Shown piece after piece: positions 6,258 through 20,427 of a stretch of DNA of 64,000 nucleotides (positions are counted from its first letter, which is position 1; each line of letters starts with the position of its first letter). The stretch comes from Myxococcus guangdongensis (GTDB lineage Bacteria > Myxococcota > Myxococcia > Myxococcales > Myxococcaceae). Where the stretch lies: positions 496,001 through 560,000 of the forward strand of contig NZ_JAJVKW010000006.1 in assembly GCF_024198255.1 (NCBI RefSeq), read 5' to 3'. The translations under genes and the position numbers were made by a program. Under the pieces are notes generated by a model. That model ran no database searches and was not told the origin of the DNA. It saw only the letters and a list, made by a program, of their open reading frames with translations.

Positions 6258-7928
6258 ATGGCTCGTTCGTCGTGGTCCCGCGGAGTGAGTGGTTGGTTGA
6301 ACCGCGGCCTTTTCTCGTCTGCTCTGGCGGTTTCCTTGTCGGCGTGTGAGCCGGCTGGACAGGTCGAGCCTCCCAAGCCCTCCCCCGCCGAGAATGAGGA
6401 AGTGGCGGTGGATGCGAAGGCCCTGCTGGACAGCATGGCCGTGTTCTCGTTGCGTCCGCTGTCTCATGAGCCGGTGCCGCAGCCCGTGGGCAGCCGCATC
6501 ATCAACAAGGCCGCGGCCATCCGGCTGGGCAAGGCCTTCTTCTGGGACATCCAGTCGAGCGGTGACGGCGTGACGGCGTGCGCGAGCTGTCACTTCGCCG
6601 CCGGCGCGGACGACCGCAAGAACAACACCATCCACCCGGGCTTCGACAACACGTTCGACAGCATCTCGGGGCCCGGCCAGGACTTCACGCTGGCGAAGAT
6701 CACCAGCGACGACCGCGTGGGCTCCATGGGCCCGTTCCGCGCCGCGTTCCTCGACCTGGACATGGCCAACCTGGACAACCCGGCGGACCAGTGCGTGGTG
6801 GTGCCGGCCGAGCCGTTCAACGAGTTCCAGTTGGTGGGCCCGCGCCACACGCCGACCGTGGTGGGCTCCGGCTTCTACCGCAACCAGTTCTGGGGCGGCG
6901 AGGCGAACGTCCTCTTCAACGGCGTGAACATCTGGGGTGACTCGGGCAACAACGGCCAGGGCTTCCTGGTGCGCATCGAGGGCGCCTCGCTGGCGTCGCA
7001 GGCCACCGGCCCGGTGGGGAACTTCAGCGAGCAGACCTGCTCGGGCCGTCAGATCCTCGGCCCCGACAGCCTGGGCACCAAGCTCATCCCGCGTCAGCCG
7101 CTGCGCCACCAGCGCGTGTCCATCAACGACAGCGTGCTGGGCGCCATGGCGAACCCGGACGGCCCGGGCCTGCTCTGCAACGGCGCGCCCTGCACGTACG
7201 ACCGGATGATTCGCGACGCGTTCGGCGACGCGCTGGCGAACATCGGCGAGAACGCCTTCTCGCTCTTCTGGGGCGAGGCGCTCCAGGCCTACCAGGCCTC
7301 GCTCATCCCGGACCAGACGCCGTTCGACCGCTTCCTGGGTGGCAACCTCGCGGCGCTCACGCCCAAGCAGCTCAAGGGCCTGTCCGTGTTCGTGGGCAAG
7401 GGCGAGTGCATCAACTGCCACACCGGCGCCATGCTGACCGACGCCACGGTGTCCTGGTATGAGATCGCCGGCCCGCTCAACCGCGACGGCGGCGACACGG
7501 GCTTCCACAACATCGGCGTGCGTCCCACCGACGACGACCTGGCGCGCGGTGACCTGGGGGTCTTCGGCGGCGTGCCCAACTCCATCAGCCTCTCCTCGTT
7601 CGACATGGGCGCGTTCAAGACGCCCACCCTGCGCAACGTGGGCCTCAACCCGCCTTACTTCCACAACGGCGGCTACCCCACGCTCGAGGACGTGGTGGAC
7701 TTCTACGAGCGCGGCGGTGACTTCGCCAACCCGGAGAAGTCGCTGGACATCGTCCCGCGCGTCTTCACCGCGAGCGAGCGCTCCGCGCTGGTGGACTTCC
7801 TTCGCAACGCCCTCACGGACTGCCGCGTCAAGACCTACCGCGCGCCGTTCGACCACCCGGAGCTGACGTTCCCCAACCGCGAGACGCTGCCCGTCACCGG
7901 CCGCTTCGGCATCGGCGCCTGCAACTGA
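6258..7928 (+). CDS. Di-haem cytochrome c peroxidase / MauG-family lipoprotein
   Basis: The 556-residue product has a signal sequence ending in lipobox SLSAC (C30), followed by a proline-rich tether. Haem motifs CASCH (C108-H112) and CINCH (near residue 388) and the core patterns LGKAFFWD, DRFLGG, LSVFVGKGECINCHTG and FKTPTLRNVGLNPPYFHNG place it in the cytochrome c peroxidase/MauG superfamily. It is much longer than the usual peroxidase of about 330 residues because of a large insertion between the haems. Whether it reduces peroxide or oxidises another substrate cannot be told. It stands alone, with a terminator-like hairpin just downstream. Confidence 0.88.
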   Translation: MARSSWSRGVSGWLNRGLFSSALAVSLSACEPAGQVEPPKPSPAENEEVAVDAKALLDSMAVFSLRPLSHEPVPQPVGSRIINKAAAIRLGKAFFWDIQSSGDGVTACASCHFAAGADDRKNNTIHPGFDNTFDSISGPGQDFTLAKITSDDRVGSMGPFRAAFLDLDMANLDNPADQCVVVPAEPFNEFQLVGPRHTPTVVGSGFYRNQFWGGEANVLFNGVNIWGDSGNNGQGFLVRIEGASLASQATGPVGNFSEQTCSGRQILGPDSLGTKLIPRQPLRHQRVSINDSVLGAMANPDGPGLLCNGAPCTYDRMIRDAFGDALANIGENAFSLFWGEALQAYQASLIPDQTPFDRFLGGNLAALTPKQLKGLSVFVGKGECINCHTGAMLTDATVSWYEIAGPLNRDGGDTGFHNIGVRPTDDDLARGDLGVFGGVPNSISLSSFDMGAFKTPTLRNVGLNPPYFHNGGYPTLEDVVDFYERGGDFANPEKSLDIVPRVFTASERSALVDFLRNALTDCRVKTYRAPFDHPELTFPNRETLPVTGRFGIGACN

Positions 7929-8193: not shown

Positions 8194-9993
8194 ATGAGTC
8201 AGGAAGCCGTGCCCATCGACCCGCATGAGACGCTGTATCTGCCCATGCGGCGCCGGTTCATGAGTGAGTACGTGCAGACGGAGGAGGGCACGAACGAGCT
8301 GCGCATCTACTACGGGCTCAAGGAGATCAGCATCGAGGAGCCCGAGCTGTACGCCTTCGGCGAGAACCTGCTCAAGCAGGACAGCTTCATGGCGGGCATG
8401 GCCACGCGCTGGTCCACCGGTGAGCCGCTGCCGTGGGAGCGGGTGCAGGGGCTGCTCGCGCACCTGCTCTCGGAGAACATCCTGTCGCGCGAGGCGCCCA
8501 AGCTCGCCGCGGACACCGACTACCACAAGATGATCATGGCGGCGGAGGCCAAGCGCCCCGCGCCCGACTCCCCCATGTGGTGGAACCCCGACACCGAGGG
8601 CGTGCTCAAGCAGCTGGTGGGCCGGCCCATGGAGTTCGGCTTCCTGGAGGCGATGCTGCCGGTGCACCGCGCGGCGCACGCGGCGCTGGACGCCGAGGGC
8701 CGCCACATCGGTGAGAACAACGTCTTCCCGGACTCGATGCGCATGCGCATGGAGACCGAGTGGCGCATGTGCCCGTACCCGGGCAGCCGCTTCCGCGACG
8801 ACGCGCTGATGAACGTCACGGCGCTCAAGTCCATGACCAAGGTCTGGAAGCCCGCGCTGCAGGCGATGCTCATCCTGCGCGACGAGTTCCTCAAGCGCTA
8901 CCCACTGCTGCCGGACGGCCAGTGGCGCATCGGTGACTTGCACGCGTTCAGCTGCGCGGTGCTCGCGCTGCCGTCGATGATGCTGCTGCGCGGGGAGGAC
9001 CCCGTCCCCAACGGGACGTTGGACCCGCTGCTGTCGTCGGTGTTCCGCGTCACCGACGGCGTGCGCATGGTGAGCATCTACCTGATGTTCCTGCCCGAGC
9101 AGCCCATGCCGTACGAGACGCCCATCAACCCGGCGTCGCTGCTGCACCTGACGGAGCGCGACAACCACTTCCTGTCCACGCGCGGCGTGTGCGCCGGCCC
9201 GCCGCACATGGTCGAGGAGTTCTTCGCGACCATGCTGGACGGCAAGCCCATGGCGGGCGAGCCGCTGCCCCAACCGACGTGGCTGGAGGAGATTCCCGCC
9301 GCGTTCGACTATGGCCTGCGCGGCCTGCAGCTGTACTCGCTCCAGTTCACGCTCTGGGCGCACATGTGTCACACCTACGAGCGGCTGCGCGACATCATCC
9401 TCCAGGCCGAGGCCCCGAAGACGACCGGCTGGGGCCGGCTGCGCGAGCGGCTGGAGAAGGACTGGAAGACCATCCAGCCCACGCGCCAGCACACCGAGGT
9501 CCAGCGCGCCTGGGCCAAGGCGCGCTACGTGGAGATGTTCGACCGCGCCCAGCGCGGCCTGCGCGGTTTCTCCGAGGAGAAGCTGCAGCACATCTCGGAC
9601 GTGTTCGCGCCGGCCAAGGACGCCGTGCACGAGCAGGCGCGCCAGCAGCTGCGCACGCTGTTCCGCGAGCGGGCCCCCGCGCCCGAGGGCGCCGACCCCG
9701 AGCTGACGGACCGGCTGGCGGACGTGCTCGCCGACTACATCACCATCGAGCGCTCCGCCGTGGGCACCCTGGACACCGTGCAGCGTGAGGTCAACACGCT
9801 GCTCAAGCGCGAGCACCCCCAGCGCCACTTCACCAACCTGGACCTCTCCATCCACCACCGGCTGCGGTTCGCCACCATCGGCGTGCTGCCCTACCTGATG
9901 GAGGTGTTCCGCGAGGAGCTCGGGTTGGTCATCCAGGACGACGTCGCGTCCGTCACCATCACCCCCGGCAACCCCCGCGCCGTGGCCGCGTGA
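8194..9993 (+). CDS. 599-residue protein of unknown family, candidate partner of the peptide arrays
   Basis: The ATG at 8194 follows a good ribosome site (CAGGAGC). The soluble-looking product has no signal peptide and no obvious membrane segment, and I recognise no enzyme family. Residues about 18-100 (YYGLKEISIEEPEL through LLAHLLSENIL) look like a small winged-helix unit, loosely like the peptide-recognition elements of RiPP enzymes, but this is only a resemblance. The middle is rich in Trp, Met, His and Arg (PMWWNPDTEG, GENNVFPDSMRMRMETEWRMC, ERDNHFLSTRGVCAGPPH), and the C-terminal third is helical and charged. It lies 164 bases upstream of the first precursor array on the same strand, with a hairpin between. 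It could be a modifying enzyme, an immunity or regulatory protein, or unrelated. Confidence 0.75.
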   Translation: MSQEAVPIDPHETLYLPMRRRFMSEYVQTEEGTNELRIYYGLKEISIEEPELYAFGENLLKQDSFMAGMATRWSTGEPLPWERVQGLLAHLLSENILSREAPKLAADTDYHKMIMAAEAKRPAPDSPMWWNPDTEGVLKQLVGRPMEFGFLEAMLPVHRAAHAALDAEGRHIGENNVFPDSMRMRMETEWRMCPYPGSRFRDDALMNVTALKSMTKVWKPALQAMLILRDEFLKRYPLLPDGQWRIGDLHAFSCAVLALPSMMLLRGEDPVPNGTLDPLLSSVFRVTDGVRMVSIYLMFLPEQPMPYETPINPASLLHLTERDNHFLSTRGVCAGPPHMVEEFFATMLDGKPMAGEPLPQPTWLEEIPAAFDYGLRGLQLYSLQFTLWAHMCHTYERLRDIILQAEAPKTTGWGRLRERLEKDWKTIQPTRQHTEVQRAWAKARYVEMFDRAQRGLRGFSEEKLQHISDVFAPAKDAVHEQARQQLRTLFRERAPAPEGADPELTDRLADVLADYITIERSAVGTLDTVQREVNTLLKREHPQRHFTNLDLSIHHRLRFATIGVLPYLMEVFREELGLVIQDDVASVTITPGNPRAVAA

Positions 9994-10011
9994 GATGACG
10001 CGGTGTTTCAC

Positions 10012-10052: not shown

Positions 10053-10055
10053 AGC

Positions 10056-10084
10056 TTGACTCACATGTTTCACCGACTTATATC
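10056..10084 (+). promoter_or_regulatory. Promoter of precursor array A
   Basis: TTGACT at 10056-10061 is followed after 17 bases by TATATC at 10079-10084 (or TTATAT one base earlier). It is 74 bases upstream of the first precursor ATG. The same TTGACT with 17-base spacing occurs before arrays B and C, which supports all three. Confidence 0.6.
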
Positions 10085-10157
10085 GGAGAAGCCAAAAACG
10101 TCAGTTAGCTGAACTGTCGCGATTGGTGCTGATGCCTCGAAGTCCTGGAGCAAGCAC

Positions 10158-10229
10158 ATGCAGATCAAGACCAAGGTTCGTGGCGGTCCCCGCGGCTGTG
10201 GCGGCGGTGTCGTGGTCAAGGCTGTCTGA
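10158..10229 (+). CDS. Precursor peptide A1 (Q-type)
   Basis: A 23-residue peptide: MQIKTKVRGGPRGCGGG followed by VVVKAV. A GGAG ribosome site lies eight bases before the ATG. The first 17 residues are the conserved part shared by Q-type precursors, and only the six-residue hydrophobic tail is individual. It is the first of six genes in array A. C39-type processing could occur after the first GG (residue 10) or after the glycine run (residue 17). Confidence 0.85.
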   Translation: MQIKTKVRGGPRGCGGGVVVKAV

Positions 10230-10275
10230 GCTGTCCCGTAGTTGAGGTCCGCAACCTCTCACCAGGAGCAAGCAC

Positions 10276-10338
10276 ATGCAGATCAAGACCAAGGTCCGTG
10301 GCGGTCCCCGTGGCTGTGGCGGCGTGATTGCTGTCTGA
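10276..10338 (+). CDS. Precursor peptide A2 (Q-type, shortest)
   Basis: A 20-residue peptide: MQIKTKVRGGPRGCGG followed by VIAV. It has an AGGAG site and the CACCAGGAGCAAGCAC leader seen before most copies. It is the shortest of the fourteen and lacks one glycine of the GGG run, so its possible tail is only four residues. Confidence 0.82.
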   Translation: MQIKTKVRGGPRGCGGVIAV

Positions 10339-10395
10339 GCTGTGTTGTTGCTGAACCGCTGAACCCCGTTCCCACTTTTCACCAGGAGAAATCCG

Positions 10396-10473
10396 ATGAA
10401 GATCAAGACCAAGGTTCGTGGTGGTCCTCGCGGCTGTGGCCCCGGTGGCATCAGCTACGAAGTGCTGGAGTAG
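10396..10473 (+). CDS. Precursor peptide A3 (K-type)
   Basis: A 25-residue peptide: MKIKTKVRGGPRGCGPGG followed by ISYEVLE. It is the first K-type copy: lysine at position 2 goes together with GPGGIS in place of GGGV. The AGGAG site is present. It lacks the isoleucine-aromatic pair (ISIWY or ISIYY) of the other K-type peptides and has ISY instead. Confidence 0.85.
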   Translation: MKIKTKVRGGPRGCGPGGISYEVLE

Positions 10474-10522
10474 TCGTCGCTCGGAGTCGTCGTTCACGCA
10501 TCACACACCAGGAGCAAGCACC

Positions 10523-10600
10523 ATGAAGATCAAGACCAAGGTTCGTGGCGGTCCCCGCGGTTGTGGTCCCGGCGGCATCTCCATCTACTACGAGCTGTAA
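10523..10600 (+). CDS. Precursor peptide A4 (K-type)
   Basis: A 25-residue peptide: MKIKTKVRGGPRGCGPGG followed by ISIYYEL, ending in TAA. The AGGAGCAAGCACC leader places the ribosome site correctly. The protein is identical to A5, and the genes differ only around the stop, so the two are a recent tandem duplication. Confidence 0.87.
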   Translation: MKIKTKVRGGPRGCGPGGISIYYEL

Positions 10601-10630
10601 TTCCAGCCTCGCACCTCAGGAGCCAACACC

Positions 10631-10708
10631 ATGAAGATCAAGACCAAGGTTCGTGGCGGTCCCCGCGGTTGTGGTCCCGGCGGCATCTCCATCTACTACG
10701 AGCTGTGA
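10631..10708 (+). CDS. Precursor peptide A5 (K-type, identical to A4)
   Basis: A 25-residue peptide with the same sequence as A4 (tail ISIYYEL) but ending in TGA. The spacer CCTCAGGAGCCAACACC is nearly the same as that before A6, which shows repeated duplication of a unit of about 108 bases. Confidence 0.87.
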   Translation: MKIKTKVRGGPRGCGPGGISIYYEL

Positions 10709-10738
10709 TTCCAGCCTCGCACCTCAGGAGCTAACACC

Positions 10739-10819
10739 ATGAAGATCAAGACCAAGGTTCGTGGCGGTCCCCGTGGTTGTGGTCCGGGTGGCATCAGCAT
10801 CTGGTACGAAGAAGTCTGA
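10739..10819 (+). CDS. Precursor peptide A6 (K-type)
   Basis: A 26-residue peptide: MKIKTKVRGGPRGCGPGG followed by ISIWYEEV. It is the last gene of array A, with a hairpin terminator 22 bases downstream. The tail starts with the ISIWY motif shared with both array B peptides. Confidence 0.87.
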   Translation: MKIKTKVRGGPRGCGPGGISIWYEEV

Positions 10820-10841
10820 TTCAGACCCGTCGCCAGTCCTT

Positions 10842-10883
10842 CGGCCGTCAGTGGGCTTCCCCCCGCTGGCGGCCGTCGTGTTT
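10842..10883 (+). terminator. Terminator hairpin of array A
   Basis: CGGCCGTCAGTGGG at 10842-10855 pairs with CCCGCTGGCGGCCG at 10862-10875 over 14 bases with two G-U pairs and a six-base loop, followed by TCGTGTTT. It lies between array A and the convergent end of the exporter operon. Confidence 0.7.
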
Positions 10884-10978
10884 CCAGCGTCCGCCCTGGG
10901 CGCGAAGTCCCGCCCGTGGGGTTACCGGCCCGCGCGCGGTGACCTCTGGCGCGCGGGCGGCGTTCCCCCCGAGTCCCG

Positions 10979-13168
10979 TCAGGGATGGGCGATGACGATG
11001 AGCGTGGGCGCGCGCTCCTCGACGCACGCCATCACCTTGCGCATGGTCACCGGGTCCAACGCGCCGAAGGCCTCGTCGAGCACGACGACCTGGACGCGCT
11101 GGAGCAGGGCGCGCGCGACGAAGATGCGGCTCTGCTCGCCGTGGGACAGTTGCCAGCCGCGCTCGCCCACCATCTGCAGGATTCCGGCGGGCATGCGCTG
11201 CAGCAAATCCCCCAGGCCCAGCTCCTCGCACAGCTCGCGCGCCAGCTTCACGTCGTCCTGGGTGTGAGGCCAGGCGCGGCCCAGCAGCAGGTTCATCGCC
11301 AGGGTGCCGGAGATGATGTGGTTCTCGTGGAACTGCGGCGCGCCCGCTATCTGCGCGCCCCAGCCCTCCTGCGTCCAGGTGGACATGTCCAGGCCGCGCA
11401 GCAGCACCACGCCGGAGCCCTGGCGCCGCAGGCCCGTGAGGATGGAGGCGAGCGTGGACTTGCCGGAGCCGGACGCGCCCTCCAGCAGCACGCGCTCTCC
11501 GGGATGGATGACCACGGAGGCGCCCTCGAGCACCGCGCGCGGCGAGGCGGGGTGCTTGAAGTACAGGTCACGCACCTCGAGCAGCGCCTGGCTCTTGGAC
11601 GGCGCCTCGGTGGCCGCCAGCGGCGTCACCTGGGGCGCGGCATCCTCGTCGTCCTTGCCGCCGCCCACGGCGCCGGAGAGCCGGGCCGCGTCGAGCATGG
11701 GGCGCACCGCGGAGAACAGCACCCGCGAGCCGATGAGCGCCAGCGCGCCCACCGCCAGCGACATCACCGCGCGGGCCCCCAGGAGGGCCGCGCCCACGCC
11801 CACCGCGATGCTCGCCGTGCTCGCCCCGGCCAGCACGCCGGGGAGAAGGGTGATGATGGCCACGGGCAGCAGGCCCCGGCGCGCGAGCGTCGTCACCCGC
11901 GCGGTGCCCGCGTCCCAACGCTCGGAAGCGTCCGAGTAGCGCGCCAGCTCCTGGTCCTCCTCCTCGTGCCAGCGCGAGGGCTGCTCCTGCGCCAGCCGCG
12001 TGCGGTGGCCGAGCATCCGCTCGATGAGCGCGTGGGTCATCACCACGCGCGCCTCCGTCCAGCCCCGGAACAGCAGCGACTGGCGCGCCACCAGCACGCC
12101 CAACAGGACGCAGTACCCGCCCAGCGCCGCGAGCCCCAGCATGCCGGCGGGGCCCGACAGCGTGACGCTGCCGGCCAGGGACAGGTCCACCACGGCGAGC
12201 AGGCTGGTGAAGCTGCCGGCGAGCGCCATCTGCTCCATGCCCGCGCTCTCGAAGGTCCTCCCCACGTACTCGCCGATGCCGCCGCGCTTCGCCTCGTCCA
12301 CCGGCATGGCCAGCGCGCCCGCCAACAGCCTGCGCCGGAGCAGCGCGGACAGGTCCAACGCCAGCGAGCCCTGCGTCCACGCCAGCGCCGCCTGCAGCGG
12401 CACCGCCGTCAGCCCCATCAACGCCCACGCCCACAGCCAGCCGTGGTCCAGCTGCCCCTCGAACGCGCCGCGGCCAATCAGCCACCACGCGCTGAGCACG
12501 CACACCTGGATGAGCACCGCCAGCACCAGCACCAGCGCCAGGCGCGGCGCGGTGGACAGGGCCTTGAGGTGGTGGACCAGCCGGGCGCCCGGCGGCAGCC
12601 GCAGCGTGCGCGACGCCACCAGGTGCGTGTTGGCCAGCTGCGCGCCCAACAGCGCTCGCCGCGCGAGCAGCCGCTGCGCCTCCGGCATCGCCGCGCGCGA
12701 CAGCACCCGGTCCACCGTGGGGGCCTGGGTGCCCTCCACCAGGGCCTGCACCCCGGACGTGAGCAGCTCGATGGGCACGTCGCGCTCGGTCTCGTCCGGC
12801 GCGATGACGCGCGCGGTGCGGCCGGAGGCGGACACGCTCAGGAGCGCCGCCACCTGGACGCCCTCGTGGGTGACGACGTCCAGCAGGGCAGGGGAGGCGC
12901 GCAGGAGCGCCTTCTCCACCTCGCCGTGGCGCGTGTACGCCAGGTCCAGCTCCAGCCCCTGCGCCTGGGCGGCGGCGTCCAGCCACTCGCCCAGCCGGTT
13001 CGGGTCCGTGGGCGCCGCGCCGACGACGTTCGCCCGCGTCCGGGGCAGCGGCAGTCCCGCCGCCCGCGCCAGCGACTCCAGCGCCTCCGCGCCGCGCTCC
13101 ATGGGCCACACCAGCCCCGCGAGCGGCTCGGCGGGCCTGGACACCTTCGCGTCCGAAGCGCGCGTCAT
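10979..13168 (-). CDS. ABC exporter subunit, permease/ATPase with degenerate N-terminal domain (NHLM ABC2-like)
   Basis: The 729-residue product has an N-terminal region of about 200 residues resembling a peptidase-like fold but without catalytic Cys/His/Asp motifs. A transmembrane domain follows at about residues 205-480. The nucleotide-binding domain has Walker A GASGSGKST (near 564), a signature LSHGEQSR (near 674, with H in place of the usual second G), Walker B VVLDEAF and H-loop IAHP. This layout matches the second ABC protein of NHLM-type peptide export systems. Its ATG overlaps the stop of the peptidase-ABC gene (ATGA, 13165-13168), so the two are translationally coupled and probably form a heterodimer. 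It ends the leftward exporter operon. Confidence 0.87.
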   Translation of the reverse strand: MTRASDAKVSRPAEPLAGLVWPMERGAEALESLARAAGLPLPRTRANVVGAAPTDPNRLGEWLDAAAQAQGLELDLAYTRHGEVEKALLRASPALLDVVTHEGVQVAALLSVSASGRTARVIAPDETERDVPIELLTSGVQALVEGTQAPTVDRVLSRAAMPEAQRLLARRALLGAQLANTHLVASRTLRLPPGARLVHHLKALSTAPRLALVLVLAVLIQVCVLSAWWLIGRGAFEGQLDHGWLWAWALMGLTAVPLQAALAWTQGSLALDLSALLRRRLLAGALAMPVDEAKRGGIGEYVGRTFESAGMEQMALAGSFTSLLAVVDLSLAGSVTLSGPAGMLGLAALGGYCVLLGVLVARQSLLFRGWTEARVVMTHALIERMLGHRTRLAQEQPSRWHEEEDQELARYSDASERWDAGTARVTTLARRGLLPVAIITLLPGVLAGASTASIAVGVGAALLGARAVMSLAVGALALIGSRVLFSAVRPMLDAARLSGAVGGGKDDEDAAPQVTPLAATEAPSKSQALLEVRDLYFKHPASPRAVLEGASVVIHPGERVLLEGASGSGKSTLASILTGLRRQGSGVVLLRGLDMSTWTQEGWGAQIAGAPQFHENHIISGTLAMNLLLGRAWPHTQDDVKLARELCEELGLGDLLQRMPAGILQMVGERGWQLSHGEQSRIFVARALLQRVQVVVLDEAFGALDPVTMRKVMACVEERAPTLIVIAHP

Positions 13169-15861
13169 GCCGCCCCCCGCTTCGTCTCCGAGGGCTGCTC
13201 GGCGAGCTGTCCCTGGTCCAGCATCATCCGCCTCCAGCCGCCCTGGCCCGACAGGGCCCGCCGCATCTGCTCCTCCTCGTCCAACAGCGAGCGGTACACG
13301 GAGTCCTCCTGCTTGGCGAGCTCGCGCGGGTTGGCGTCCTCCACCAGCTGGCCGCCCTTGATGACCAGCACCCGGTCGAACGTCAGCGTCTCCGCGATGT
13401 CATGCATGATGCACAGCAGCGTGGCGCCCTCCAGCTCCTGCCGGGAGCGCTCCAGCAGCGCGGCGCGCCGGTCCCGCTCCAGGCCGCGGAAGGGCTCGTC
13501 GAAGATGGCCAGCCGCACCCCGGGCCTGAGCAGCGCCCGACCCAGGCGCACGCGCTGTCCCTGGCCTCCGGACAGGAGGCTGCCGCCCTCGCCCAGGCGC
13601 GTCTGGAGCCCCTGGGGCAGCTTGTCCAGGAACTCGATGAGGTCCGCGGACCGGAGCGCCTGCCCCACGCGCGGCAGCACCTCGCTCGTCTCCACGCCGT
13701 AGGCCAGGTTGTCCACCAGCGACTTGTTCCACAGCGTCACCTCGGGCTCCACCCACGCCGTCTGCCGGCGCAGGCGCGCCAGCGTCTGGCCCTGGAGCGG
13801 CTCGCCGTCCACCTTCACCTGGCCGGAGGACGGGCGGTGCCAGCCCAGGAGGATGCCCACCAGCGACGACTTGCCCGCGCCCGACGGGCCGACGATGGCC
13901 ACGTGCTCACCGGGCCGCACCGCCATGTCGATGCCCTGCAGCACCGTGAAGCCCGCGGCCTTGACCTCCACCTGCTCCAACGTGAAGCCCACGCCCTGGG
14001 GCTGCGAGGCGAGCGCCGCGGGGGAGGGCTCCTCCACCGTCTCCAGCCCCGCGCCCACCTCGTCGGGCGCGAGCAGCGGCTCCATCAGGCGGCCCGTGAG
14101 CGACGACGCGGCGGGGTACTGCCGGAGCGCGTCCGCCAGCTGCTTGCCCACCGTGGCCAGCGCCAGGGCCCAGTACACCAGCAGCAGCACCGCTCCGGGC
14201 TGGATGCCCTGGGACACGGCGTGCAGGACGATGGCCACCGAGCCTCCGGTGGCCGCCAGCATGGAGAGGGTGTCGGTGAGGATGCCCCGGCCCAACAGCG
14301 TGCGCGCGGCGCCCACGTACTCGTGCAGGGGCTCCTCGTGCGCGCGCCGCAGCGTCAACTCCGCGCGGTGCGCGCGCAGCGCCACGGCGCCCCGCATGGC
14401 GTCCAGGTAGAAGCGCGACAGCACGCCGTCGAAGTCGCGCATGCGCCGGTCCGCTTCCAGCAGCGAGCGCTGCGCCAGCAGCGGCACCGCGAGCGCCATG
14501 GCCCCGCCCAGCACGATGAGCGGCGCGCTGCCGGGGGCCAGCCACACCAATCCCCCCAGCGTCACCAGCATCTCCGAGGTGGCGCGCAGCACGCCCACCC
14601 CCAGCGTGGGCACGCTGCGCACCTGGTGGATGCCGTGGCAGCGCTGCGCCATGTCGGAGACGAGCCGGCTCTTGAAGTAGCGGTCCCCCAGCCTTGGAAT
14701 CTTGTCGAGGAACGCCAGCCGCAGCCGGACCTCCAGGCGGCGCCCCAGCTTCAGCGTCCCCATGGCCAGGGGCAGCTCCAGCGTGAACAGCACGCCCATC
14801 AGCACCAGCAGCGTCACGATGCCCGCCAGCCGCTGCTCCTGGGTGGTGAGGTAGCGGCCCGCGTCGATGATGCCGCGCAGGAGCAGCGCCTCCAGGAAGC
14901 CGCCCACCGCGGCCGTCAGGGCGATGGCCGCGAGGATGGAGGGCGCGAGCAGGCCGTCCCGGCGCATCAGCCCGACGAGCTCGCGCAGGGGGCGGGTGGG
15001 GGGCTCCAGCAGCGCCGCCTTGAGGTCCGCGGACAGGGGCTCCTCGTCCTCGTCGCGCGTCTGACGCAGGCCCCGGGCGAGGATGCAGACCACGCCGCGC
15101 AACGTCACCTCTTCACCGTCCGCGGCGCCCACCGCCGTCCAGTAGGTGGCGGGGATGACCTGCTCGGCGCGGCCCTCCTCCAGGGCCACGCGCACCTCGC
15201 TGAGCAACTGCTCCAGGAAGCGCGCGGACGGCTCGCCGTGCTCCACGCCGCCGCCGTCCACCAGCGTCTGGACCATCCGCGTCGTCGCGTCCAGGCACGC
15301 CACGCCCTTCCAGCTCGCGTCGGCCAGGGCCTCGTCGAGCAGCTTCGCGGCGAGCGACGTGTCCACGAGCGCCTGCAGCCTCAGGCGCATCCCGGCGAGG
15401 AACTCGTCCGTGCCGGCCCAGTCGCGGAAGGCCTCGGCCGGGACGGGCAGGGCGTGGACGTACAGCCGGTCCATCAGCTCCGCCACGGACACCCAGCGCC
15501 GTCCCAGCGCGGGGTCCATGATCTGCACCCGGTCGCCGATGCGGCGCCAGACGACGACGAAGTGCAGGTTGCTGTCCGCCAGACGCACCACCATGATGGC
15601 CGGCAGCGTCTTCGTCTCAGGCATCAGCACCTGGTCGCGAGGCAGGACGACCTGGGTGGCGTCCAGGCCCAGCTTGCCGGCCAGCTCCTCCAGCACGTCC
15701 ACGGACGTCCCGTCGATGTCCGTCTGGCAGGCCTCGCGCAGGCGGCCGTAGCTGACCGACACGCCGAAGCCGTCGAAGAGCGCCTTGAGGGCCGCCGGAC
15801 CGCAGTCCATGGCGGAGGTCTGGATGACTTCGGGGATGAGCAGCCTTCGTGTGCCCGCCAT
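13165..15861 (-). CDS. Peptidase-containing ABC exporter (C39 family, NHLM ABC1-like)
   Basis: The 898-residue product combines leader peptidase, permease and ATPase. The N-terminal C39 domain is intact: Q14 and C20 in QTSAMDCGPAAL, H100 in NLHFVVVWR and D116 in IMDPALG. Such domains cut peptide leaders after a double glycine during export. An insert of about 150 residues precedes a transmembrane domain at about 300-570. The ATPase has Walker A GPSGAGKSS (near 657), signature LLSGGQGQR and Walker B LAIFDEP. The neighbouring precursors all carry GG motifs, so they are the obvious substrates. It sits four bases after the HlyD gene and overlaps the second ABC gene. Confidence 0.93.
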   Translation of the reverse strand: MAGTRRLLIPEVIQTSAMDCGPAALKALFDGFGVSVSYGRLREACQTDIDGTSVDVLEELAGKLGLDATQVVLPRDQVLMPETKTLPAIMVVRLADSNLHFVVVWRRIGDRVQIMDPALGRRWVSVAELMDRLYVHALPVPAEAFRDWAGTDEFLAGMRLRLQALVDTSLAAKLLDEALADASWKGVACLDATTRMVQTLVDGGGVEHGEPSARFLEQLLSEVRVALEEGRAEQVIPATYWTAVGAADGEEVTLRGVVCILARGLRQTRDEDEEPLSADLKAALLEPPTRPLRELVGLMRRDGLLAPSILAAIALTAAVGGFLEALLLRGIIDAGRYLTTQEQRLAGIVTLLVLMGVLFTLELPLAMGTLKLGRRLEVRLRLAFLDKIPRLGDRYFKSRLVSDMAQRCHGIHQVRSVPTLGVGVLRATSEMLVTLGGLVWLAPGSAPLIVLGGAMALAVPLLAQRSLLEADRRMRDFDGVLSRFYLDAMRGAVALRAHRAELTLRRAHEEPLHEYVGAARTLLGRGILTDTLSMLAATGGSVAIVLHAVSQGIQPGAVLLLVYWALALATVGKQLADALRQYPAASSLTGRLMEPLLAPDEVGAGLETVEEPSPAALASQPQGVGFTLEQVEVKAAGFTVLQGIDMAVRPGEHVAIVGPSGAGKSSLVGILLGWHRPSSGQVKVDGEPLQGQTLARLRRQTAWVEPEVTLWNKSLVDNLAYGVETSEVLPRVGQALRSADLIEFLDKLPQGLQTRLGEGGSLLSGGQGQRVRLGRALLRPGVRLAIFDEPFRGLERDRRAALLERSRQELEGATLLCIMHDIAETLTFDRVLVIKGGQLVEDANPRELAKQEDSVYRSLLDEEEQMRRALSGQGGWRRMMLDQGQLAEQPSETKRGAA

Positions 15862-15864
15862 GGC

Positions 15865-17082
15865 TCAGCTCCCACCCCGCGACATCTCCAGCTCCCCCGA
15901 CGAGCGCGGCGGCAGCGGGCGCGAGCGCGCCGGCGCCTCCAGCCCCCGCCCCAGCGAGCGCAGCACCAGCCTGAGCGGCGTGGAGTCCTCCACGGCGATG
16001 TCCACCGTGCCCGGCAGGCCGTGCTCCAGGGGGATGCCCACCGGCATCTCGTCCACGGACAGCTCCACGCGCACCAGGCCGTCGCGCGCCTCGCTCGCCA
16101 CCGCGACCACCGTGGCGCGCACCATGCCGAACTCCGTCCAGGCGAAGCCCTCCAGCTTCATGCGCGCCGGCTGGCCCGCGCGCACCCGGCCCAGCGCCGT
16201 GGCGGGGGACAGCTGCGCGACGATGCGCACGTCGCCGCCCGCGACGACGGTGGCCATGCGGTCTCCGGCCCTCACCTGCGTGCCCACGCGCACCGGGCTC
16301 GTCTCGCCCAGGATGCCGTCGGCGGGCGCCTTCACCACGCGCCGCTCCAGCTCCTCGCGCAGCCGCTCCACGGTGGCCTGCGACACGCTCTCGGCGGCCT
16401 CCAGCTCCGCGATGTCCCGCTTGAGCGCCGCGGCCCGGATGCGCCGCTCGGTGGCCAGCATGGTCCCATCCATCTTCACGCGCGCGAGCGCCGCGCGGGA
16501 GGCCTGCTCGGACGCCTGGGCACGCTCCAGCTCGGTGCGCACGCGGCTCCACTCGGACTCGCTGATCAACTGGCGCGAGTGCAGCTGCTCCGCGCTCGAC
16601 TTCTCCTCGAGCGCCCGGCGCGCCAGCGCCTCGGCCTCCACCAGCCGGGCCTTGGCCTCCTCCACGCCCGCCGCGCCGCGCTCCTGCTGGGCCACGAGCG
16701 CGCCCTGCTCCACCTCGAGCTCCGCGCGCGCCGCCGTCAGCTGCGGCCCCAGGCCCCGAAGCTGGGCCTCCGCCTCCGCCAGCTGCCGCGCCTCCTGCTC
16801 GTGCGCGAGCTCGAAGAGCACCTCGCCCGCGCGCACCTGCCGGTGCAGCTCCACCCGCGTCTTCACCAGCCGCCCGTCCACCGGCGCATCCACCGCATAC
16901 ACCTCGCGGTGGACCTCCAGCCGCGCCTGCACGCTGGGCTCGTAGACGGTGATGCTCGCTCGCAGGAACCACACGCCCCAGACGGCGAACAACCCCACCG
17001 GCAACAACCAGAGCGCCGAGCGCCCTCGTCCCCGCAGCAGCGCGCGCACGGTGCGCGGGAACATTCCTTCACCAACTCTCAT
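15865..17082 (-). CDS. HlyD-family membrane fusion / secretion protein
   Basis: The 405-residue product has one N-terminal membrane segment (about 24-42, WLLPVGLFAVWGVWFL), then a biotinyl-lipoyl-like half (VYAVDAPVDGRLVKTRVELHR and, later, VKAPADGILGE) split by a long alanine/glutamate-rich coiled coil (about 95-235), then a beta-barrel region. This is the standard HlyD layout for the periplasmic bridge of a peptide exporter. It is the first gene of a three-gene operon (HlyD, peptidase-ABC, ABC), the order usual for NHLM-type systems. No outer-membrane TolC-type gene is present in the window. Confidence 0.9.
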   Translation of the reverse strand: MRVGEGMFPRTVRALLRGRGRSALWLLPVGLFAVWGVWFLRASITVYEPSVQARLEVHREVYAVDAPVDGRLVKTRVELHRQVRAGEVLFELAHEQEARQLAEAEAQLRGLGPQLTAARAELEVEQGALVAQQERGAAGVEEAKARLVEAEALARRALEEKSSAEQLHSRQLISESEWSRVRTELERAQASEQASRAALARVKMDGTMLATERRIRAAALKRDIAELEAAESVSQATVERLREELERRVVKAPADGILGETSPVRVGTQVRAGDRMATVVAGGDVRIVAQLSPATALGRVRAGQPARMKLEGFAWTEFGMVRATVVAVASEARDGLVRVELSVDEMPVGIPLEHGLPGTVDIAVEDSTPLRLVLRSLGRGLEAPARSRPLPPRSSGELEMSRGGS

Positions 17083-17620
17083 GAGCGAAGCCTACCTCAT
17101 CACCGTGGAACAGACGGACTCCCCGCCAGACCTTCCACCCGGGACGCTCCCGGAGGTCGGCGCCCATCCTCGCCCGCCGGACTGACGCGCGGCAAAGCCA
17201 CGGGGCCACCCGCGGACGCCTTGCGCGCCCCGTCATGGCTCGGGGCCCGGTCCGCGAGGGTCTTCCGCGCGGGGTCGTGAATGGACAATCCATCCAGGCG
17301 CGAAGCCACGCACCCGTCCCGGCTCGCGTCGCGGGTCTGTCAAGGGTTGTCCAGGTCAGACCTGTCTCGGAGATAGGGCTTATAAAATCGCTAAAACATG
17401 TTTTCAGGCGATTGCGACGCGAGGCGTGATGCGGGCACCCCGTAGCGCCGAGGAGGCGCCCCTCTGTGGCGCTCCAGGATGGGCCGCTGTAACCGGTTTG
17501 CGCATCGCGGCAGCGGGTTCAGGTGGATTCATGACCCAGGGGTCTCTCAGGATTCGATAAATTGGGCCGTTTCTCCAAGTCCGCGGATCTATTCCGGATG
17601 ACGGGTTTTTCCGTTGAAGG
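17083..17620. other. Intergenic region between exporter operon and array B
   Basis: These 538 bases hold the presumed leftward promoter of the exporter operon and the upstream region of array B. A TTGACA is found on the leftward strand at 17338-17343, but no convincing -10 element follows at normal spacing. A palindrome at 17386-17413 is listed separately. No protein-like open frame with a ribosome site was seen. Confidence 0.4.
17386..17413. promoter_or_regulatory. Palindrome between divergent exporter operon and array B, possible operator
   Basis: A perfect 12-base palindrome AAAACATGTTTT (17393-17404) is nested inside a second inverted repeat, AATCGC (17386-17391) and GCGATT (17408-17413). 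It overlaps a TATAAA and is AT-rich in otherwise GC-rich DNA. It could bind a dimeric regulator or form a hairpin. Function is inference only. Confidence 0.4.
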
Positions 17621-17621
17621 C

Positions 17622-17650
17622 TTGACTCCGAATTTTCATCGATTTTTAAT
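17622..17650 (+). promoter_or_regulatory. Promoter of precursor array B
   Basis: TTGACT at 17622-17627 and TTTAAT at 17645-17650 are separated by exactly 17 bases. The following bases GATTCTACTCCG are nearly repeated after the array C promoter (GATTCCACTTCCG), so the promoters are copies of each other. It is 70 bases before the first array B ATG. Confidence 0.65.
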
Positions 17651-17720
17651 GATTCTACTCCGGGTGTGCATGGGCAACCGTGCCGGCTGGAGCGACCGTG
17701 GTTCAACCAGGAGCGACATC

Positions 17721-17807
17721 ATGAAGATCAAGACCAAGGTTCGTGGCGGTCCCCGTGGCTGTGGCCCGGGTGGCATCAGCATCTGGTACGACACCGTTCT
17801 GGCGTAG
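17721..17807 (+). CDS. Precursor peptide B1 (K-type)
   Basis: A 28-residue peptide: MKIKTKVRGGPRGCGPGG followed by ISIWYDTVLA. A CCAGGAGCGACATC leader provides the ribosome site. It is the first of two genes in array B. Confidence 0.87.
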   Translation: MKIKTKVRGGPRGCGPGGISIWYDTVLA

Positions 17808-17861
17808 TCGTGCCTGCTGTCGTTGTTTCACCGTAGTGACTCAATCACCAGGAGCAGACAC

Positions 17862-17960
17862 ATGAAGATCAAGACCAAGGTTCGTGGCGGTCCCCGTGGT
17901 TGCGGCCCCGGCGGCATCAGCATCTGGTACGACCTCGACGTCGCCCAGCAGCTCCCGTAG
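17862..17960 (+). CDS. Precursor peptide B2 (K-type, longest K tail)
   Basis: A 32-residue peptide: MKIKTKVRGGPRGCGPGG followed by ISIWYDLDVAQQLP. Its QLP end resembles the ends of array C Q-type peptides (TQLP, AQLP), so it links the two subfamilies. A CACCAGGAGCAGACAC leader precedes it, and an intrinsic terminator follows after 40 bases. Confidence 0.87.
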   Translation: MKIKTKVRGGPRGCGPGGISIWYDLDVAQQLP

Positions 17961-18000
17961 TTTCGTCCCCGGGCGTTGATTCGCTCGGACGAGACTCGAA

Positions 18001-18038
18001 ATCGCCAGTGAGCGGAGCATCGCTCGCTGGCGATTTTT
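18001..18038 (+). terminator. Intrinsic terminator of array B
   Basis: ATCGCCAGTGAGCG at 18001-18014 pairs with CGCTCGCTGGCGAT at 18021-18034 (14 pairs, one G-U), directly followed by a run of six T. This is the clearest Rho-independent terminator of the locus. Confidence 0.85.
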
Positions 18039-18144
18039 TATGCCTTCACGAAGCCGGCTGTATTTTCTTCCGATTCGCGAAGTCTGAGATTGGCTGTGGC
18101 CTGAGAGGTTACAAAGACTTTCGCCGCATTCTTTGCGTGGTGAC

Positions 18145-18173
18145 TTGACTGGCCGATTACACCCGCCTTTAAT
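18145..18173 (+). promoter_or_regulatory. Promoter upstream of array C
   Basis: TTGACT at 18145-18150 and TTTAAT at 18168-18173 are spaced by 17 bases, with the same downstream GATTC motif as array B. The distance to the first ATG (18496) is about 320 bases, so either the leader is long or a second promoter lies nearer. Confidence 0.55.
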
Positions 18174-18421
18174 GATTCCACTTCCGATGCGAACCGGAAA
18201 CGGTGAATCGCACGCAATGGCGAATCGGGAGCCGCGTAATGGCTGGGTGGACAGGGAATAGCGGCGGGCAGCGCGGGTTGTGGAGGTGGCTCGGAGAAAT
18301 CCGGCCGCGGGGGAGGCGGGACAGCGGGTGACCTTGGAGACCCGCGTGTCAGAGGGGTGTGTATAGATTCGCGGGCACCGAAGAACCAGAAGGTGTCGTC
18401 GTTCGTAGACTCGTGAGTTTC

Positions 18422-18475
18422 TGTCAACGCCTTCCAGCCATCCAATCCCATGGGTTGGGTGTCTGGTGTCAACGC
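18422..18475 (+). promoter_or_regulatory. Palindrome flanked by direct repeats in the array C leader
   Basis: A near-perfect palindrome CCAATCCCATGGGTTGG (18442-18458) lies between two copies of TGTCAACGC (18422-18430 and 18467-18475). The second copy ends 20 bases before the first array C ATG, so binding or folding here could control translation or transcription. Role is inference. Confidence 0.35.
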
Positions 18476-18495
18476 AGTACATCCAGGAGCGTACC

Positions 18496-18585
18496 ATGCA
18501 GATCAAGACCAAGGTTCGTGGCGGTCCCCGTGGTTGCGGTGGTGGCGTCGTGCTGGCCGGCCAGGTCCGCACCCAGCTGCCGTAG
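18496..18585 (+). CDS. Precursor peptide C1 (Q-type)
   Basis: A 29-residue peptide: MQIKTKVRGGPRGCGGG followed by VVLAGQVRTQLP. An AGGAGCGTACC leader precedes the ATG. The protein is identical to C2 although several codons differ. Confidence 0.87.
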   Translation: MQIKTKVRGGPRGCGGGVVLAGQVRTQLP

Positions 18586-18652
18586 TCGTCGTCCGTCGTA
18601 CCGGTTGACTCGGCTGTTCATCCAACGCGGTCTTTCACCAGGAGCAGACATC

Positions 18653-18742
18653 ATGCAGATCAAGACCAAGGTTCGTGGCGGTCCCCGTGGCTGCGGCGGC
18701 GGCGTCGTGCTGGCCGGCCAGGTCCGCACCCAGCTTCCGTAG
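18653..18742 (+). CDS. Precursor peptide C2 (Q-type, identical to C1)
   Basis: A 29-residue peptide with the same sequence as C1 (tail VVLAGQVRTQLP) but with synonymous differences (for example GGC TGC GGC GGC in place of GGT TGC GGT GGT). Protein identity with codon differences suggests selection on the peptide. A TCACCAGGAGCAGACATC leader precedes it. Confidence 0.87.
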   Translation: MQIKTKVRGGPRGCGGGVVLAGQVRTQLP

Positions 18743-18808
18743 TCGACTGGCAGCACCGTCTCATCCATCCGACTCCAGCGATGGAGTCATCCTCACCAGG
18801 AGCTCATC

Positions 18809-18901
18809 ATGCAGATCAAGACCAAGGTTCGTGGCGGTCCCCGTGGTTGCGGTGGTGGCGTGTCCCTGCCCGTGCTGAACCAGAACGTCCGCATCCCGTA
18901 G
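18809..18901 (+). CDS. Precursor peptide C3 (Q-type)
   Basis: A 30-residue peptide: MQIKTKVRGGPRGCGGG followed by VSLPVLNQNVRIP. The ribosome site CACCAGGAG lies at normal spacing. Confidence 0.87.
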   Translation: MQIKTKVRGGPRGCGGGVSLPVLNQNVRIP

Positions 18902-18942
18902 TCCACCCGGGTTCCCCTCCGGGAATCCACAAGGAGAACACC

Positions 18943-19029
18943 ATGCAGATCAAGACCAAGGTTCGTGGCGGTCCCCGTGGTTGCGGTGGTGGCGTGCTGA
19001 CCAACCAGGTTCGCGCGCAGCTGCCGTAG
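18943..19029 (+). CDS. Precursor peptide C4 (Q-type)
   Basis: A 28-residue peptide: MQIKTKVRGGPRGCGGG followed by VLTNQVRAQLP. An AAGGAG site precedes it. The NQVR segment resembles the GQVR and NQNVR segments of its neighbours. Confidence 0.87.
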   Translation: MQIKTKVRGGPRGCGGGVLTNQVRAQLP

Positions 19030-19086
19030 TCGTTCGTCAGCATTCCCGAGCTGACTTCACTCACACCTGATTCCGAGGAGTCCATC

Positions 19087-19188
19087 ATGCAGATCAAGAC
19101 CAAGGTTCGTGGCGGTCCCCGTGGCTGTGGCGGTGGTGTTGCGATTCCCGTGCGCACCACGGGCGGCGTCATCACGCAGATCCCGTAG
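19087..19188 (+). CDS. Precursor peptide C5 (Q-type, longest peptide)
   Basis: At 33 residues this is the longest precursor: MQIKTKVRGGPRGCGGG followed by VAIPVRTTGGVITQIP. It has an extra internal GG in the tail, which could be a further cleavage site. An upstream GAGGAG gives the ribosome site. Confidence 0.87.
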   Translation: MQIKTKVRGGPRGCGGGVAIPVRTTGGVITQIP

Positions 19189-19242
19189 TCGTCAGTCTTC
19201 CCGACTGACTTCGACCCACGCTGTTCTCGATAGGAGCTCGTC

Positions 19243-19341
19243 ATGCAGATCAAGACCAAGGTTCGTGGTGGTCCCCGTGGCTGTGGTGGCTCTCTCCCGC
19301 TGCCCACGCAGCCCGTGCTGGACGCTGCCTACGCGCTGTAG
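19243..19341 (+). CDS. Precursor peptide C6 (Q-type, divergent tail)
   Basis: A 32-residue peptide: MQIKTKVRGGPRGCGG followed by SLPLPTQPVLDAAYAL. It lacks the third glycine and valine of other Q-type copies and has a proline-rich, aromatic-containing tail. It is the last gene of array C; a hairpin follows 41 bases later. Confidence 0.86.
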   Translation: MQIKTKVRGGPRGCGGSLPLPTQPVLDAAYAL

Positions 19342-19382
19342 TCCTTGTTCGGGCGCCTAAGGTGCCTGTCTAAGACGCGAGT

Positions 19383-19417
19383 CGCCAGGGGGCGGAGTTC
19401 CACGCCCTCTGGCGGCT
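19383..19417 (+). terminator. Terminator-like hairpin after array C
   Basis: CGCCAGGGGGCG at 19383-19394 pairs with CGCCCTCTGGCG at 19403-19414 (12 pairs, one G-U). The CGCCAG...GCGGAG start resembles the array B terminator, but there is no T run, so it may be an eroded copy. Confidence 0.6.
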
Positions 19418-19485
19418 GTCATTGCGGGGCCCGGTGCGGCTCGCGCGAATCCCTGTCGTGGGGAGGGCGCGCTAGAGTCCCTGGG

Positions 19486-20427
19486 ATGATCAACCCGGTT
19501 CATGTGTACGCCTGGCAGGCGGCCATCGTCGGCAACGCGCGGCTCGAGGGTCGCCCGGCGCGCGCGCTGATGCTCGAGGACCCGTGGGCGGGCGCCTTCG
19601 CGCGGAGCCCGGAGCTCTTCCGGGGCTTCGAGGTGGATGGAGGCTTCGAGCCGTCGTTCGACCCGTGGTTCGAGCGGATGAAGGCGCGGGGGCTCTTGGC
19701 CATCCGCGCGCTTCGGATCTCCGACCCTTCGATCTGGTTTCTGTACGACCCGCCCGATTCCCCGCCCCGGTTGCCGGAGCTGGCGCTGGTGTTCCCGGAC
19801 CGGGTGGTCTGGTACCGCTACTTCTTCCCGTGGCCGGGCCCCAATCCCCAGTCGGCCGTGCCGCAGGAGGACGGCTTTCGCGAGGTGGAGGAGACGCGCT
19901 CGGCGGCGGCGCCCTCGGTGGAGGACGCGGAGCGGGAGCTGCTCGCGGCGACTCGGGAGTACGTCGCCTTCGTCGGGTCCCAGGCACGCAAGGACCACTC
20001 GAGCGACGTGTTCTACGCGGCCATGGGGCAGAAGGCGCTGGAGCTGCTGACGGACACGGAGGCGGGCTTCCAGACGCGACTGGCGGCCCGGCGGGAGGCG
20101 GACGTGAAGGAGTACCGCCGGCGCAGCAAGGACTGGTGGCCCGTGCAGCCGGCGACGCGCGCCATGCGGCCCCAAATCTTCGAGAACGCGGCCAGGAGCC
20201 TGGAGCGGGACGACTACCTGCGGGTGATGGAGGCGGCGGGGCTGTCCTGGAGGGCCGTCCGGCTGGCCTGCGCCGCCCAGGACATCTGGCCGCTCAACAT
20301 GCACAACGAGCGCACGTCGGAGGACATGCTCCCGCCGTTCGTCGTGGAGCCGGGGTACGCGGCCGTCGGCAAGCGCTGGGCCGACGCGGCCATCGCCGCC
20401 ACCAACGCGGCGGTGAACGCTCGCTGA
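19486..20427 (+). CDS. Protein of unknown function downstream of the peptide arrays
   Basis: The 313-residue product begins MINPVHVYAWQAAIVGNARL at an ATG after a purine-rich stretch. It is soluble, without signal peptide or membrane segment, and rich in Trp, Tyr and Arg in its middle (VVWYRYFFPWPGP). I recognise no family. The C-terminal part looks helical. It follows array C on the same strand after a hairpin, so it could belong to the peptide locus or be an unrelated neighbour. It is convergent with the mechanosensitive channel gene. Confidence 0.65.
   Translation: MINPVHVYAWQAAIVGNARLEGRPARALMLEDPWAGAFARSPELFRGFEVDGGFEPSFDPWFERMKARGLLAIRALRISDPSIWFLYDPPDSPPRLPELALVFPDRVVWYRYFFPWPGPNPQSAVPQEDGFREVEETRSAAAPSVEDAERELLAATREYVAFVGSQARKDHSSDVFYAAMGQKALELLTDTEAGFQTRLAARREADVKEYRRRSKDWWPVQPATRAMRPQIFENAARSLERDDYLRVMEAAGLSWRAVRLACAAQDIWPLNMHNERTSEDMLPPFVVEPGYAAVGKRWADAAIAATNAAVNAR

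Follow-up and report, generated by a model that had tools for sequence, protein, structure and literature searches.

A stretch of 64,000 nucleotides from Myxococcus guangdongensis (contig NZ_JAJVKW010000006.1, positions 496,001 to 560,000), referred to below as the window, carries 14 tiny genes for peptides that share a nearly fixed ten-residue leader. The constant partner of such peptides is a protein of 599 residues, designated c0 (8194..9993, + strand). A leader peptide open reading frame (ORF) is present at 59 of the 60 full-length c0 loci examined, and at 0 of 6 loci of shortened c0 relatives, which are about 414 to 466 residues long and lack the N-terminal domain. This linkage, seen across myxobacteria and unrelated proteobacteria, suggests that the peptides form an as yet undescribed class of bacterial products that are modified and exported. 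It is probable, in our judgement, that the genes form a system akin to those for ribosomally synthesized and post-translationally modified peptides (RiPPs), in which precursors with a ten-residue leader would be bound and modified by c0, cut after Gly10 and exported.

An earlier note on this DNA had described 14 ORFs of 20 to 33 codons in three arrays (10158-19341) surrounding a HlyD / C39-ABC / ABC (ATP-binding cassette) operon, and had proposed an undescribed peptide system grouped with that exporter. The ORFs, their arrangement and the placement of the operon (on the - strand, between arrays 1 and 2) were all borne out. The system is also undescribed within the scope covered: five of the 14 window peptides and five relatives matched no Pfam or NCBIfam family (the best row, Sublancin, had E 0.09, under the cut-off), and no paper containing the leader strings was found in an open full-text search, supplements and closed journals being outside its scope. 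What did not stand was the exporter as the centre of the system, a grouping that the note itself had rightly treated with caution. The earlier list omitted c0 and a MauG-like protein (6258-7928), which go with the peptides. A peptide system can still be upheld, since its constant partner is c0, but it is centred elsewhere than first proposed.

Linkage of c0 to the leader peptides

Besides the window, the 60 loci include 59 fetched ones in which c0 is long; many come from near-identical species, and L105-L111 and L119-L126 were excluded as repeats or near-repeats. Myxococcus, other myxobacteria, Methylococcales, Nitrosomonas, Phenylobacterium and others are represented. The sole miss (L118, Aestuariivirga) is a contig of 3.4 kb on which c0 is truncated by the contig end. 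No leader ORF was found in 4.3 Mb of dinucleotide-shuffled sequence. Note that the count of 59 in 60 expresses linkage and not probability, because the leader pattern was drawn up after inspecting the loci and the loci are not independent. Genes outside the window were called with a simple GC-frame caller, and their starts are therefore uncertain.

Scanning a genome collection with c0 gave 22 loci, including ones from Methylococcales, Nitrosomonas, Phenylobacterium, Aestuariivirga, Archangium and Corallococcus. Searches with c0 gave matches in 12 of 301 genomes from the order of Methyloglobulus and in 32 of 195 from the window's phylum, some of these being shortened relatives or fragments; the matches in G057 (fragmentary) and G153 are not among the loci examined. 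A record titled Comamonas sp. KCTC 72670 (BNCN01000007.1, L125) bears a Myxococcus-type locus, and its title looks wrong.

When 61 genomes (the window's own and 60 relatives) were searched for window-type peptides, strong matches (best E ≤ 8.2e-6) were obtained in nine, all within the genus of the window, which is represented by 27 genomes. In the remaining 52 the best E was 0.07 or worse, or there was no match, and the 18 genomes of the genus set without window-type peptides score 0.22 or worse. Full-length c0 in the 27 genus genomes falls into three types. Window-type c0, 589 to 602 residues long outside the window, occurs in nine genomes, the same nine that hold window-type peptides. The second type (55-59% identity) occurs in five genomes, each copy adjoining one to three peptides of the form MKIKTR(V/I)R(A/S)GP..RGC(G/A)GG... 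Three of these five c0 genes (L068:11821-14436, L069, L071) adjoin two proteins that by eye look radical SAM (S-adenosylmethionine) / SPASM-like (389 and 480 residues in L068).

The third type (32-33% identity) occurs in 18 genomes, in an operon of the order HlyD - C39-ABC - ABC - TolC-like - c0 - kinase-like. Near HlyD lie one or two small genes (14 or 15 codons), MKIK(I/L)HVRGGPKAR. A DNA search with such a gene gave matches in all 18 genomes that have third-type c0; eight of the other nine had no match, and G020 had only weaker matches, to window-type peptides. Genes of 14 to 17 codons beside HlyD/C39/ABC/TolC/c0/kinase-like operons were found at L072-L078, L081, L082, L186-L199 and L176. 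In this sister subtype the precursors have 14 to 17 residues, and the core would be 4 to 7 residues (PKAR, MKIR). All 23 loci examined in the window's family have PKAR, lengthened by one residue in some second copies. Genes of 14-17 codons escape gene finders with a length limit, and those of 14 residues raise the possibility that peptides of some four residues are encoded in bacteria next to an exporter dedicated to them.

Of the 31 peptide matches obtained in G020 (E ≤ 1), 28 were confirmed as ORFs of the window type that carry the leader, one is a second-type peptide and two were unconfirmed. Many of the window-type ORFs are solitary and lie on different contigs, and one of the G020 stretches fetched bears the exporter operon. 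Gene order in G020 is altered, yet the MauG-like, c0, two ABC and HlyD genes are retained.

Precursor genes, leader and core

The 14 precursor ORFs lie on the + strand in arrays of six, two and six genes. A 21-base leader pattern (three mismatches or fewer) matched 14 times in the window and 0 times in 100 shuffles. Shine-Dalgarno-like sites are placed 6-8 bases 5' of each ATG; the AGGAG that the earlier note gave to every gene is present in 13, while the first gene has TGGAG. All 14 peptides begin M(K/Q)IKTKVRGGPRGCG, and divergence begins after residue 15. Two pairs of peptides are identical (10523 and 10631; 18496 and 18653), and the near-identity of the repeat unit within the window extends to the DNA.

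Array 1 (10158..10819, + strand) is placed between c0 and the 3' end of the exporter operon. Its genes start at 10158, 10276, 10396, 10523, 10631 and 10739 (23, 20, 25, 25, 25 and 26 residues), and a strong hairpin follows at 10842-10875. The other two arrays are sited beyond the 5' end of the operon. Array 2 (17721..17960, + strand; starts 17721 and 17862; 28 and 32 residues) is followed by a strong hairpin with a T run (∼17998-18037). Array 3 (18496..19341, + strand) has starts at 18496, 18653, 18809, 18943, 19087 and 19243 (29, 29, 30, 28, 33 and 32 residues) and is followed by a long strong hairpin without a T run (∼19380-19416). A terminator scan of the whole stretch gave 3 hits versus 2.6 in shuffles, which is no excess, and a sigma-70 consensus scan gave no promoter; TTGACT-like hexamers seen by eye 5' of the arrays were not used as evidence.

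One further copy lies outside the cluster in the same genome, at C6:169081, and related precursors are found at two additional loci there. The lone precursor (L056:9028-9141 in the fetched locus), MQIKTKVRGGPRTCGGGVIIIAGPGPYNPNNPYELEP, is far from the cluster and has relatives in G003 and G004 (L057, L059). Plasmid records held no near match to 9600-19500.

Across c0 types, the first ten residues are close to M-K-(I/V)-(K/Q)-x-x-(V/I)-(R/K)-(G/A)-G, position 2 being Q or L in many peptides of the window type. The length after Gly10 ranges from 4 to about 36 residues across these types, and the sequence there also differs between subtypes. At L176 (G066, from another family of the same taxonomic order), four small genes encode MKIQTNV(K/R)AG followed by LTKIR, MKIR, VLVKGR or LIAVKGR. 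We place the border between leader and core at Gly10 because the residues after it vary, as is seen when the L176 tails are set beside PKAR in Myxococcus. Window-type cores start with P-R-G-C and are variable thereafter.

Proportions of nonsynonymous (pN) and synonymous (pS) differences were calculated between the window genome and G003, using the 11 of 14 peptide pairs that were reciprocal best matches (the 18809/16429 pair is perhaps not orthologous). For residues 1-15, pN was 0.003 and pS 0.041 (1 and 5 changes); for the tails, pN was 0.083 and pS 0.143 (25 and 16 changes); for c0, the values were 0.019 and 0.090. Between these two genomes the leader is fixed and the core is evolving faster. 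Over the first 14 codons of 12 variants of the third-type small gene, pN/pS is 0.10.

A single Cys is present in 94 of 98 window-type peptides and three are present in the other four; some of the 98 are near-identical copies found in related species. Most other types retain a Cys next to Arg or Gly, and there is none in the type of 14-17 residues. The C-terminus is LP or IP in 42 of the 98, perhaps a recognition mark.

Fold and conservation of c0

RiPP enzymes bind leaders through a domain termed the RiPP recognition element (RRE). An AlphaFold2 model of c0 built from 20 sequences (predicted local distance difference test score, pLDDT, 85.5; predicted template modelling score, pTM, 0.82) has an RRE-like winged helix at residues ∼11-105 and an all-helical domain at ∼126-599, and we consider c0 a probable modifying enzyme. 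The N-terminal part of the model runs strand-strand-strand-helix-helix-helix over residues 13-93, which is the RRE order. Its structural matches include ThcOx (Z 7.3, 98 residues aligned, 3.3 Å), TigE (6.5), a McbBCD chain (6.4), the PbtF RRE (6.0, 80 aligned) and a heterocyclase (6.0). We take the matched parts of ThcOx, TigE, the McbBCD chain and the heterocyclase to be RREs. Winged helices of MINA53 and NO66 also match this domain, with rows spanning Z 9.1 to 6.8. Because the tool rates such Z values as middling, the RRE call leans on the order of strands and helices, on several RiPP proteins matching alike and on the association with a leader peptide; the predicted fold suggests that this domain would bind the leader.

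The helical domain, predicted alone, gave a pTM of 0.90 and a pLDDT of 86.5. Its best VIA-align Z was 5.0 among 996 chains (helical membrane proteins), which was read as a common helical arrangement, and Foldseek searches with both models gave no match at E ≤ 0.001. Pfam and NCBIfam gave no match at a meaningful score for c0 or its N-terminal domain; rows for Apolipoprotein (E 0.16) and for the candidate-RiPP family TIGR04031 (E 0.088, 13 of 57 bits) were taken as chance. PDB sequence profiles of c0 and its N-terminal domain gave apolipoprotein, designed and other unrelated rows only. A heme dioxygenase fold (IDO/TDO/PrnB type) was considered for the all-helical core, and no such row was found among the matches listed.

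Residues invariant in the 20 c0 rows include H162, D166, R170, E174, C193, R199, N207, D288, R291 and C333. With shortened relatives included (23 rows), D166, R170, E174, N207 and C333 are present in all, and C193 and R199 in 21. The shortened relatives are at L080:9065-11557, L079 and L182-L185, and the L079 and L080 copies adjoin a methyltransferase-like protein. Lacking both RRE and peptides, they suggest that the core domain gained the RRE on coming to act on peptides. In the c0 tree, the window, second and Archangium-type rows form one supported group (24 rows), the proteobacterial rows a second group (10) and those of the third type a group of six; the tree carries long-branch warnings on the shortened relatives.

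Exporter operon and C39 peptidase

The operon occupies 10979-17082 on the - strand. It encodes a HlyD-family periplasmic adaptor (15865..17082, - strand; 405 residues, or 399 if started from 17064), an exporter of 898 residues with an N-terminal C39 peptidase (13165..15861, - strand; active-site Q, C, H and D motifs present; PF03412, 77 bits) and a second ABC transporter of 729 residues (10979..13168, - strand), for which no peptidase domain was matched. By pattern, the Cys, His and Asp motifs of C39 are all present in 32 of 36 exporters compared, window included. Roughly 150 residues separate the C39 domain of the window exporter from its membrane part, more than expected of such exporters.

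Exporter and peptides are found together at all nine window-type loci, at 24 of 24 loci of the 14-mer type and in several proteobacteria. The grouping proposed earlier thus stands for window-type loci, but the exporter is not a constant partner: it is present at 43 of the 60 c0 loci, and was rejected as the defining partner on that count. Note that a length filter was applied in counting exporters, and that the partial C39 gene of L118 fell below it. Homologues scattered without exporter genes, which the earlier note had named as grounds for abandoning its proposal, were found in part, as dispersed G020 copies and as the 17 c0 loci without an exporter. A C39 relative is encoded elsewhere in four of six genomes whose c0 locus has no exporter. 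By pattern, none of the four has a leader peptide beside it, so that these relatives are no help to the exporter link.

Known C39 leaders are described as having hydrophobic residues at -4, -7 and -12 and a GG, GA or GS end (PMC10885120). All 14 window peptides have VRGG at positions 7-10, which supplies the GG end and the hydrophobic -4.

Proposed explanation and alternatives

Two features of RiPPs are found here: a conserved leader with a variable core on a ribosomal precursor and, by predicted structure, an RRE-type domain in the partner protein. In the RiPP-like system that we propose, each tiny gene would give a precursor with the fixed ten-residue leader M-K/Q-I-K-T-K-V-R-G-G and a variable core from P-R-G-C. 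The leader would bind the RRE-like domain of c0, as its predicted fold suggests, and the helical domain would modify the core close to the one Cys/Arg/Gly motif it contains. Cleavage after Gly10 would then fall to the exporter's C39 domain, and export of the core to the HlyD/ABC pair; the GG site, the intact active site and the neighbourhood are consistent with this step. In the window subtype, the product may be oxidised after export by the MauG-like di-heme protein in the periplasm, which is the weakest step. One set of c0 and exporter would serve many precursors with changing cores, and the most likely site of action of the products is outside the cell, in antagonism or signalling.

Rather more tentatively, and with slightly less than even confidence, we suggest that c0 is the founder of a new class of RiPP-modifying enzyme, defined by an RRE, an unsolved catalytic fold and a ten-residue leader and found in Myxococcota and Pseudomonadota. 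The branch with cores of 4-7 residues would be a conserved ultra-short signal, and the array branch would supply changing, strain-specific peptides with machinery of the same kind. If c0 proves to be an enzyme, a new RiPP class would be founded, perhaps with new chemistry, and a leader so small would lend itself to peptide engineering. The linkage already makes an undescribed RiPP-like class open to testing, through a fixed ten-residue tag and a partner without a named family or a found fold. Some genomes offer natural sets of 14 to 28 precursors, and the minimal precursors have 14 residues.

Several observations weigh against the RiPP-like reading. The top five structural rows for the N-terminal domain of c0 are MINA53- and NO66-type oxygenases (Z 9.1-7.4) and not RiPP proteins; the RRE call comes from a predicted model with Z of 6-9, a range that the tool flags as possibly common arrangements; and sequence searches with this domain reached neither PqqD nor any RRE. 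The exporter is missing at 17 of the 60 c0 loci. The C39 rules are followed at -1, -2 and -4 only, since the window leaders have Lys at -7 and are too short for -12, and relatives ending in AG fall outside the list of GG, GA and GS (PMC10885120). Over the first 14 codons of 49 distinct window-type DNA variants, pN/pS is 0.33, which is looser than the two-species figure. Finally, Trp or Tyr is not present in every core, and the MauG-like protein therefore has no evident target.

The alternative that survives best, unlikely as we consider it, is that the peptides are secreted unmodified as pheromones or microcins, and that c0 is a chaperone, escort or receptor that passes the precursor to the C39 exporter. 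In favour of such a role, the searches found no enzyme fold for the c0 core and no meaningful Pfam or NCBIfam match, and in the 14-mer subtype nothing but PKAR would remain beyond Gly10, which is a very small substrate. However, the many invariant polar residues, together with C193 and C333 across the 20 c0 rows, are more like an active site, and leader peptides are present at 16 of the 17 c0 loci that have no linked exporter.

Distinctly less probable is a cofactor-type pathway. The peptide PqqA is the raw material of pyrroloquinoline quinone, and the precursors here could in the same way be converted into a small redox cofactor or metallophore that the MauG-like protein would use or finish. 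The MauG-like protein is present at nine of nine window-type loci and at six proteobacterial loci (two of them near-identical), and the Cys count (one per peptide in 94 of the 98, three in each of the remaining four) agrees with this. In contrast, a single fixed product would not be expected to need 14 genes whose tails diverge, or the 28 window-type ORFs confirmed in G020, and the linked operon is one for export.

Intracellular regulatory or toxin-like small peptides, with the exporter a neighbour by chance, would explain the dispersed G020 copies without a linked exporter. We consider this very improbable given the joint occurrence of exporter and peptides (9/9 window-type loci, 24/24 14-mer-type loci and several proteobacterial loci), the GG end and the C39 motifs. 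Non-coding repeats with chance open frames, suggested by a repeat unit nearly identical in DNA within the window, are scarcely credible and were rejected on codon-level selection, to which are added the Shine-Dalgarno-like site 5' of each gene and the protein-level conservation of the leader across phyla.

Comparison with known systems

The proposed RiPP-like system resembles RRE-dependent RiPP classes (ThcOx, TigE, McbBCD, PbtF, LynD/TruD) in joining an RRE-like winged helix to another domain, and in having a short precursor with a conserved leader and variable core. It differs from them in that the joined domain of c0 has no enzyme match found by sequence or fold, and in that the leader has only ten residues. 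In prochlorosin-like systems, one enzyme serves many precursors. Those systems share with the window one machinery for many precursors, some of them distant, with a fixed leader and diverse cores, but no LanM-type enzyme was seen here and the leader is much shorter.

Double-glycine peptides of C39 exporters (peptidase-containing ABC transporters, PCAT), such as class II bacteriocins, microcins and class II lanthipeptides, have the same C39-ABC and HlyD proteins, the Gly-Gly and the hydrophobic -4. Unlike them, the window system has no hydrophobic -7 or -12, a leader of ten residues, AG variants, a second ABC protein and an RRE-like partner; canonical membership was rejected on positions -7 and -12. 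Export systems of the NHLP/NHLM kind (proteusin, nitrile hydratase leader) also pair two ABC proteins, one with C39, with HlyD, whereas no nitrile-hydratase-like leader is present here. Membership was rejected on scores far below the curated cut-offs (first ABC protein 175 of 853 bits, second 105 of 709, HlyD 20 of 156).

Methanobactin clusters (MbnA/B/C with MbnH/MbnP) share a short leader rich in Lys and Arg, a core Cys and a nearby di-heme protein of the MauG/MbnH type; they differ from the window in its c0 and C39 exporter. Thirteen methanobactin operons have a MATE exporter (PMC3621798). Membership was rejected, no MbnB (MNIO) or MbnC being found among the matches listed for eight neighbours, which for both ABC proteins were the 25 best NCBIfam rows. 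PMC12710340 reports the discovery of some 5,000 RREs, of which many are fused to uncharacterised domains, and c0 may for that reason sit unnamed in such a list.

MauG-like protein and other neighbours

The MauG/MbnH-like protein (6258..7928, + strand; 556 residues) belongs to the di-heme cytochrome c peroxidase family. Two CXXCH motifs and a lipoprotein-type signal (lipobox seen by eye) are present, and the protein is probably periplasmic. It scores below the curated cut-offs of TIGR04039 (113 of 363 bits) and TIGR03791 (102 of 444), and is thus related to MbnH / MauG but not an equivalog. The gene is found at 15 of the 60 c0 loci. All nine window-type loci encode it together with c0, two ABC proteins and HlyD.

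PADLOC, run on six window proteins, gave ABC matches only. A protein of 313 residues with no matched family (19486..20427, + strand) is found at seven of nine window-type loci, and its membership in the system is uncertain. A leucine-rich-repeat protein is encoded at 21623-23428 on the - strand, outside the system as far as seen.

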